DNA of 64,000 nt from Serinibacter salmoneus (lineage in GTDB: Bacteria > Actinomycetota > Actinomycetes > Actinomycetales > Beutenbergiaceae). The notes beneath the pieces are model-generated. The model saw only the letters and a list, made by a program, of their open reading frames with translations, searched no databases and was not told where the DNA came from. The DNA lies in contig NZ_PDJD01000001.1 in NCBI RefSeq assembly GCF_002563925.1, positions 1,742,973-1,806,972 on the forward strand, read 5' to 3'. A program made the translations under genes and the position numbers. Shown in pieces: positions 12,487 through 12,570 of this stretch. Position 1 is the stretch's first letter, and every line of letters starts with the position of its first letter.

Positions 12487-12546
12487 CGGCCGGGCACACA
12501 CCTACCGCCGCGACGGGGGACCGGCCGCTAGCTGATCCCGTCGCGG
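12487..12546 (-). promoter_or_regulatory. leuA leader RNA, hairpin plus pseudoknot (LEU-element-like)
   Basis: Stem 1 is a perfect 10-bp pair between 12537-12546 (CCGCGACGGG on the minus strand) and 12508-12517. Its loop contains CGGCCGG (12521-12527), which is complementary over 7 bp to CCGGCCG at 12487-12493, just before the leuA ribosome site. This is a pseudoknot topology. Comparative work on Actinobacteria has described a conserved LEU pseudoknot upstream of leuA; this looks like one, judged by eye only. A Leu codon (CTA, 12529-12531) of the leader ORF sits directly beside the loop strand. Confidence 0.7.
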
Positions 12547-12570
12547 CACCCAAGAAGGAGCGTCGTCCAT
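12502..12570 (-). CDS. Candidate leuA leader peptide, 22 residues
   Basis: The ATG at 12570 opens a 22-codon frame ending in TAG at 12502-12504, encoding MDDAPSWVPRRDQLAAG followed by PPSRR. It runs through stem 1 of the leader RNA. The only leucine codon is CTA, very rare in this genome. A ribosome waiting there would cover the loop strand needed for the pseudoknot, offering a way to sense Leu-tRNA. Upstream of the ATG there is no clear Shine-Dalgarno. It could also be a chance frame. Confidence 0.45.
   Translation of the reverse strand: MDDAPSWVPRRDQLAAGPPSRR

Follow-up and report, generated by a model that had tools for sequence, protein, structure and literature searches.

The closest described system is the LEU element, which was reported upstream of leuA in Actinobacteria by Seliverstov, Putzer, Gelfand and Lyubetsky in 2005 (PMC1262725). 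According to the available text of that report it consists of a leader, a pseudoknot and a base stem, and it was found at leuA plus one transposase gene. A protein ligand was concluded there, because mutations of the S. coelicolor leuA leader peptide had some effect that was inconsistent with classical attenuation. The leader LeuL1 of S. lividans, located before leuA, is Leu-rich, was leaderless according to RNA-seq and has no typical Rho-independent terminator in the available text of PMC8079986. Leu-rich leaders before leuA are described for Corynebacterium as well (PMC5784534, PMC4046766), and a leuA uORF of M. abscessus is listed among the ribosome-protected uORFs of a ribosome-profiling study (PMC4974804).

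A related arrangement is found with the cysteine genes of mycobacteria. These carry polycysteine leaders and, to our knowledge, a pseudoknot is not part of that system. Translation attenuation of cysteine genes is mentioned for M. smegmatis in the accessible part of PMC13236596; there, pairing with the uORF occludes the Shine-Dalgarno sequence (SD) and stalling frees it, as proposed below for a different amino acid.

The locus analyzed here lies in a window of 64,000 nucleotides from Serinibacter salmoneus, to which all coordinates refer. The feature upstream of its leuA gene is an ordinary member of the known, little-studied actinobacterial LEU element, with the sensor ORF corrected with respect to an earlier note on this DNA. 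We consider it most likely, at a probability of about 0.7, that this element attenuates translation and lacks an intrinsic terminator. The features of the locus are as follows:

10684..12459, minus strand: leuA (2-isopropylmalate synthase), ATG at 12459, ORF of 591 aa
12464..12468, minus strand: SD of leuA, GAGGA, pairable with UCCUU (12559-12555) of the sensor codons
12479..12566, minus strand: whole LEU element, match of covariance model R1 with 68.5 bits, the own copy being part of the training set of the model
12487..12493, minus strand: pseudoknot strand 3' of hairpin S1 (sequence and partner-swap test)
12502..12570, minus strand: 22-codon ORF with CTA of the earlier note, ATG at 12570, judged to be no gene
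12508..12517, minus strand: hairpin S1, 3' strand (sequence and covariation)
12521..12527, minus strand: pseudoknot strand in the loop (sequence and partner-swap test)
12528..12530, minus strand: leader stop TAG, within the hairpin loop
12528..12581, minus strand: true leader ORF VRTTWTTLLLGCRDGIS*, GTG to TAG, 17 codons, with homologous leaders in relatives
12537..12546, minus strand: hairpin S1, 5' strand (sequence and covariation)
12552..12560, minus strand: sensor codons CTC CTT CTT, the final codon starting 8 nt 5' of the hairpin
12588..12593, minus strand: -10-like box TAGGGT, 6 nt 5' of the leader GTG (from sequence)
12611..12616, minus strand: weak, tentative -35-like box TCAACC, seen by eye, 3 of 6 consensus bases

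The window shares the Leu-run ORF, the two-helix pseudoknot, the position upstream of leuA and the occurrence in Actinobacteria with the element of 2005, whose base stem between Leu run and leuA SD may have a weak counterpart of 5 bp here (UCCUU/GAGGA; PMC1262725, available text). The earlier note was right to name an actinobacterial LEU pseudoknot, with leader ORF, pseudoknot and Leu run all present upstream of leuA. LeuL1 of S. lividans is leaderless and Leu-rich like the window leader, and the available text of PMC8079986 gives neither a pseudoknot nor another target of the scaffold. The Corynebacterium leuA leaders have a Leu run as well; for these no structure is given in the accessible parts of the sources, and the start site in C. 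diphtheriae is unassigned (PMC5784534, PMC4046766). The ilvB leader attenuators, such as that of M. tuberculosis ilvB1, likewise have a short leader rich in branched-chain amino acids and a proposed sensing of charged tRNA. However, they end in an intrinsic terminator as far as described in the parts available, whereas none was seen by eye in the window (PMC1262725; PMC13236596).

On the minus strand, which is the strand of leuA, a perfect stem of 10 bp (12546-12537/12517-12508) was present where the earlier note had placed it, and 12527-12521 was found to be the exact complement of 12493-12487, again as claimed there. Dinucleotide shuffles covering 160 nt of the leader contained a 10-bp hairpin in 15 of 2000 cases and a hairpin plus 7-bp pseudoknot in 1 of 2000. 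Within the 64-kb window three such combinations existed over both strands, that of the leuA leader included. The pseudoknot score of the window was equalled by 3.1% of the shuffled loop and flank sequences. As the free-energy z-score was ordinary for the whole leader (0.15) and for the core (-1.59), the case for the element rests on comparison.

The LeuA_dimer domain in the leuA product scored over the cut-off, and the N-terminus of leuA found matches in 54 of 59 genomes, the own genome counted. The DNA 5' of leuA was read in 50 of the 54 matched genomes, that is, 30 loci including that of the window and 20 others, leaving aside G017, G030, G042 and G058. At all 50 loci, which homology to leuA alone had identified, a Leu-rich leader was followed by a [C/R/S]R motif and by a hairpin around the leader stop. 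Runs of three or more Leu codons were present in 46 of the 50. The script called 45 leaders with a leuA start and one (L018) without, and the remaining four with shorter Leu runs (L007, L017, L026 and L033) were called by eye.

Covariance model R1 was built from 47 of these 50 loci, the copy of the window's genome among them. Within the class it matched 384 of 393 genomes (E≤0.01), and it also matched all 20 genomes behind named records (E≤0.001). In two Streptomyces, S. noursei and sp. A0642, it recovered the LeuL1 peptide MRFGLLLLSCRGEGL ahead of leuA. Since R1 includes the Leu-codon columns, sets found with it lean to Leu leaders, and the 50 homology-found loci are free of this bias. Rfam gave no match at the gathering score for the window and 10 related loci; at E≤1 the one match had 16.5 bits and lay on the opposite strand, so that none was credible. 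A single copy of the element was found in the window's genome. A second protein containing LeuA_dimer is encoded in this genome by a 589-aa frame (G000:C1:1971463-1971885, L253), which had no LEU element match.

Of 117 R1 matches in the loci covered, tblastn assigned 98 to leuA, 11 to the leuB side and 4 to leuC, and left 4 unassigned. The last group consisted of a match at a contig edge (L056), one before a small ORF with no leuB in view (L080), one before a LeuA-domain protein (L117) and a second R1 match within L083 that had neither a leader start nor an assigned gene. Model R2, which represents the scaffold without the leader codons and served to look for other amino acids, gave 47 hits spread over 38 of 40 genomes (E≤0.003), among which further codon types may occur. 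Twenty weaker or leftover matches comprised 7 with a leader and a recognised target, namely L125 and L131 (leuB side), L127 (leuA), L133 (leuC) and L122, L128 and L134 (LeuA domain), and 13 without. L132, a weak second match in G242, had no leader and looks like chance.

In the alignment of 98 leuA elements S1 was paired to 98.1%; 7 of its 11 pairs had changed on both sides and 4 never varied. Taking S1 and pseudoknot together, 12 of 16 pairs showed double changes, a number as high as this occurring in 0 of 500 shuffles, with shared ancestry retained. The pseudoknot columns were paired to 67.9%, partly because the 3' strand was aligned with one-column slips. We therefore rescored the pseudoknot per sequence as the best pairing of the loop with the downstream strand, which avoids such slips. 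The own partners then scored 18.2 versus 15.8 (sd 0.24) for swapped ones, and 0 of 1000 permutations reached this value (shared ancestry retained); for the 64 elements with variant loops the scores were 17.9 and 15.0, respectively. Both helices covary among relatives, and the likely transcription start, judged from TAGGGT at 12593-12588, would lie upstream of the hairpin; the two points that the earlier note had left for a check thus speak for the element.

A branched-chain codon began 8 nt 5' of the hairpin in 98 of 98 leuA, 4 of 4 leuC and 11 of 11 leuB-type elements, and in the leuA elements this was a Leu codon without exception. Counted from the first base of S1, the leader stop lay at 13 nt in 46, at 16 nt in 46, at 19 nt in 4 and at 25 nt in 2 of the 98. 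A TANNNT box 5-8 nt before an in-frame start was present in 84 of the 98 leuA leaders compared with 309 of 34883 start-like triplets of all loci, a lenient comparison as several in-frame starts were allowed per leader. Among leuB-type leaders the box was found in only 3 of 11. In the window 6 nt separate TAGGGT from the leader GTG, hence transcription probably starts at the start codon itself and the leader is probably leaderless. The spacing between TCAACC and the -10-like box is 17 nt.

In 92 distinct leuA elements 287 leader Leu codons were counted (CTC 130, CTT 121, CTG 33 and TTG 3), with CTA and TTA absent from this set. The leader of Corynebacterium lactis leuA, a named locus outside the 92, reads CTA CTC CTT and so contains one CTA. 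CTT accounted for 42% of the leader Leu codons (121/287) versus 2% in the leuA coding sequence (37/1871), where CTG (63%) and CTC (30%) prevail. CTT and CTC are similar to the anti-SD, and tRNA-Leu(GAG) reads both; the codon counts do not tell pairing from choice of tRNA.

In the MFE fold of the window the leuA SD was paired with the sensor codons in a weak stem of 5 bp (UCCUU/GAGGA), and no better pairing of the two emerged from the pairing search. Across elements the leader-SD stem scored 15.98 with the own partner versus 14.88 with swapped ones (0/2000, n = 81, shared ancestry retained). For the modelling of a switch 70 of the 98 leuA elements were used; of the 28 dropped, 14 had no TANNNT start, 9 had no clear SD and 5 were duplicates. 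The ribosome footprint was assumed to begin 13 nt upstream of the P site and to end 12 nt past the beginning of the A site. In these 70 elements the modelled pairing of the SD with the leader reached 0.70 when hairpin and pseudoknot were formed and fell to 0.02 when a ribosome occupied the last Leu codon; random synonymous recoding of the Leu codons lowered it from 0.70 to 0.34.

Stalling with the last Leu codon in the A site raised the modelled accessibility of the SD from 0.15 to 0.44, with 58 elements going up and 7 down. With the ribosome at the stop the value was 0.25, computed without the pseudoknot; stalled values were higher than those at the stop in 49 and lower in 14 of the 70. The modelling of the family supports the idea that the Leu codons mask the SD and that a stalled ribosome would free it. 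The element of the window itself gave 0.40 with the pseudoknot, 0.32 when stalled and 0.51 at the stop, i.e. no rise on stalling. The mechanism thus has support at the level of the family, and we infer it for the window.

The element is laid out as a 17-codon leader, presumably leaderless, and a hairpin, the whole ending at the SD. The hairpin loop contains the leader stop together with one of the two strands of an H-type pseudoknot. When leucine is plentiful, the ribosome would reach the stop in the loop and leave, and hairpin and pseudoknot would form. The Leu codons could then pair with the leuA SD, which would keep leuA off. When charged tRNA-Leu is scarce, the ribosome would wait at the last Leu codon, its mRNA entry channel facing the base of the hairpin. 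In this position it would cover the anti-SD, the pseudoknot would remain folded and the SD would be free. The sequence comparison shows the anatomy of the element, its conservation and covariation, the codon bias and the fit of codon content to the gene controlled. For the window we infer this regulatory function as a whole, including transcription start, leader translation, stalling and outcome.

The scaffold was not confined to leuA. Before leuC the leaders (4 elements) kept the Leu run. On the leuB side they contained Val, Leu and Ile codons, as in MRQVLVLITCRGGA and MRSVFVLIDCRGEA; at least two Val or Ile codons within the last six were present in 10 of 11 leuB-type leaders versus 0 of 102 leuA and leuC leaders. 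Named cases of this type are Nocardioides sp. J54, Aeromicrobium camelliae and a Sporichthyaceae MAG. At all 11 leuB-side loci a small ORF was located between the element and leuB. Its stop ranged from 4 nt inside the leuB start to 314 nt before it, and was within 21 nt in five of the 11. Additionally, leuB had its own TANNNT 6-8 nt 5' of the start in 9 of 11. The small protein is therefore the closest target, and control may or may not extend to leuB.

Small ORFs of about 20-45 codons following a Val/Leu/Ile leader were seen at L084, L086, L096, L099, L102, L108, L110, L113, L115, L118, L121 and L080, in all loci save L080 5' of leuB. Most of the small proteins, not that of L121, had an end resembling ...ALQ.A.DRRDNGG..., and searches of Pfam and NCBIfam with five of them gave no match at E≤1. 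At 80 leuB loci of named genomes, read up to about 2 kb upstream and less in some, R2 matched at 8. Of these, L186 and L209 had the opposite orientation, L149 and L150 were weak and missed by a regular-expression scan, and L200 was far upstream with a Leu leader. This reduces the matches to L207, L211 and L212, so the type is patchy and leuB was rejected as a general target. The Streptomyces and Nonomuraea loci among the 80 had no R2 match.

A third kind of target was a protein that consists of the LeuA allosteric domain only, as located downstream of the element at L117 (PF08502, 2.4e-6). With the relative at L134 as query, matches were found in 122 of 151 genomes of family f22 (E≤1e-6), a number which includes frames of full-length LeuA. 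Among the best 30 loci of f22, 27 had a leaderless leader plus hairpin called by script, for example MQRIQVVVHRRSGV or MKRILVVRRRSGV. At L230, L237 and L241 a hairpin was recognized by eye; in L237 and L241 the leader was altered and stopped inside the stem, and the valine-type sensor is possibly changed or decaying there. In 17 distinct leaders GTA made up 30 of 40 Val codons, compared with none of 69 in the genes downstream. The Val codons were pairable with the stretch right after the hairpin, with a score of 17.9 for own versus 15.5 for swapped partners (0/2000, n = 23, shared ancestry retained), and the five valine-type folds inspected had a small hairpin near the SD region. Across the LeuA-domain loci L222-L251, L254-L261, L117, L122, L128 and L134 we observed nearly always a valine-rich leader on the same scaffold.

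Eight of the 13 genomes behind named records encode the LeuA-domain protein: a Mycolicibacterium, two Rhodococcus, four Nocardia and Corynebacterium lactis. It was absent from the other five (Streptomyces, Streptoalloteichus, Nocardioides, Oerskovia and Aeromicrobium). The element was present at 7 of the 8 named loci, three times by script and in the four Nocardia by eye. At the C. lactis locus (L257) the scaffold was not found; a leader-like sequence of another kind, MQKNILIRVAKATNPGGGHTD*, was located there.

Which part of the element senses leucine was weighed against several alternatives. The earlier note had proposed that a ribosome held at the CTA of a 22-codon ORF (12570-12502) blocks the pseudoknot. 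This ORF exists with CTA as its single Leu codon, exactly as described, and its frame was open across stem and loop in 72 of the 92 distinct leuA elements. However, an ATG in this frame was present in just 4 of the 92, no SD is evident by eye before the ORF, and the CTA is formed by the base before the leader TAG and the first two bases of that stop, that is, "C TAG" read out of frame. The same loop CTA recurred in the frame in 41 of the 92 elements, which is put down to such "C TAG" stops. What the note had missed are the three consecutive Leu codons of VRTTWTTLLLGCRDGIS, CTC CTT CTT, in another frame overlapping the 22-codon ORF. We therefore rejected the latter as leader and regard stalling at its CTA as extremely improbable. 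The link between ribosome position and charged tRNA-Leu, drawn in the same note, remains likely by way of the 17-codon leader; blocking of the pseudoknot does not, since a ribosome waiting on CTC CTT CTT reaches the hairpin edge and not the loop. The pseudoknot would then stay intact and the stem between Leu codons and SD would be opened, as modelled over the family though not seen for the window's own sequence. The 2005 proposal instead sees in the element the site of a regulatory protein (ML1624-like, with a helicase domain) and in the leader peptide no sensor, as suggested by the phylogenetic pattern and the S. coelicolor leader mutations in the available text (PMC1262725). Against it stands a scaffold that stays constant while its codons follow the target, Leu at leuA and leuC, Val/Leu/Ile on the leuB side and Val before the LeuA domain; nor would a protein site need a branched-chain codon 8 nt before the hairpin in every leuA, leuC and leuB-type element. 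With codons matched to targets in this way, as read from sequence, translation of the leader is the more probable sensor, and we hold protein binding to be improbable.

Translational attenuation has also to be compared with attenuation of transcription, where the position of the ribosome would set Rho-dependent or other termination and pairing of the SD would be secondary. A terminator is proposed for the M. tuberculosis ilvB1 leader in the accessible part of PMC13236596. By eye, however, no U-tract lies between hairpin and leuA in the window, and the combination of hairpin and U-tract that marks a classical transcription attenuator was not found before leuA. The lack of a typical terminator described for leuL1 in the available text of PMC8079986 points the same way, and so does the choice of Leu codons, which favours pairing with the SD. 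We consider this explanation unlikely. Reinitiation was set aside because the leaders concerned end 10-11 bp from the gene in the available text of PMC4833913, and the distance from the leader stop at 12528 to leuA at 12459 is much longer.

Translational attenuation by leader codons thus remains the preferred reading, and the leuA leader of the window's genome is placed in a described family which Rfam did not match here, with its sensor ORF and codons corrected. New here is the occurrence of the scaffold before leuC, before a microprotein gene 5' of leuB and before a free-standing LeuA-domain gene. These copies and the exchanges of codons come from the present analysis and not from the available text of PMC1262725. 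In the literature covered, which was mostly open access and is weak evidence of absence, the scaffold was unreported at leuC, beside leuB and before a LeuA-domain gene. The LEU element could accordingly represent one setting of a reusable chassis in which leader, 8-nt spacing, hairpin with the stop in the loop and pseudoknot are kept and the sensor codons are exchanged, a generalization to which we give even odds. The sensor would be set to Leu at leuA, at second copies of leuA and at leuC, to Val/Leu/Ile at the microprotein gene 5' of leuB and to Val at the LeuA domain. Because the codons vary with the target on a constant scaffold, the doubt over leader translation as the sensing step is now testable by codon swaps, and one scaffold with target-matched sensor codons is a part that specialists would want to test. 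If the generalization is true, one may speculate that the free-standing LeuA domain acts as a brake on LeuA, triggered by valine, and so saves 2-ketoisovalerate for the making of valine.

Some genomes carried two leuA-type genes with a LEU element on each. These were two Streptomyces, a Cellulosimicrobium, an Oerskovia and a Mycolicibacterium, with the pairs L274 and L285, L278 and L289, L267 and L282, L264 and L284, and L279 and L287. In the window, the gene 5' of leuA (12602-13321, minus strand) has the look, by eye, of an FHA-domain protein.
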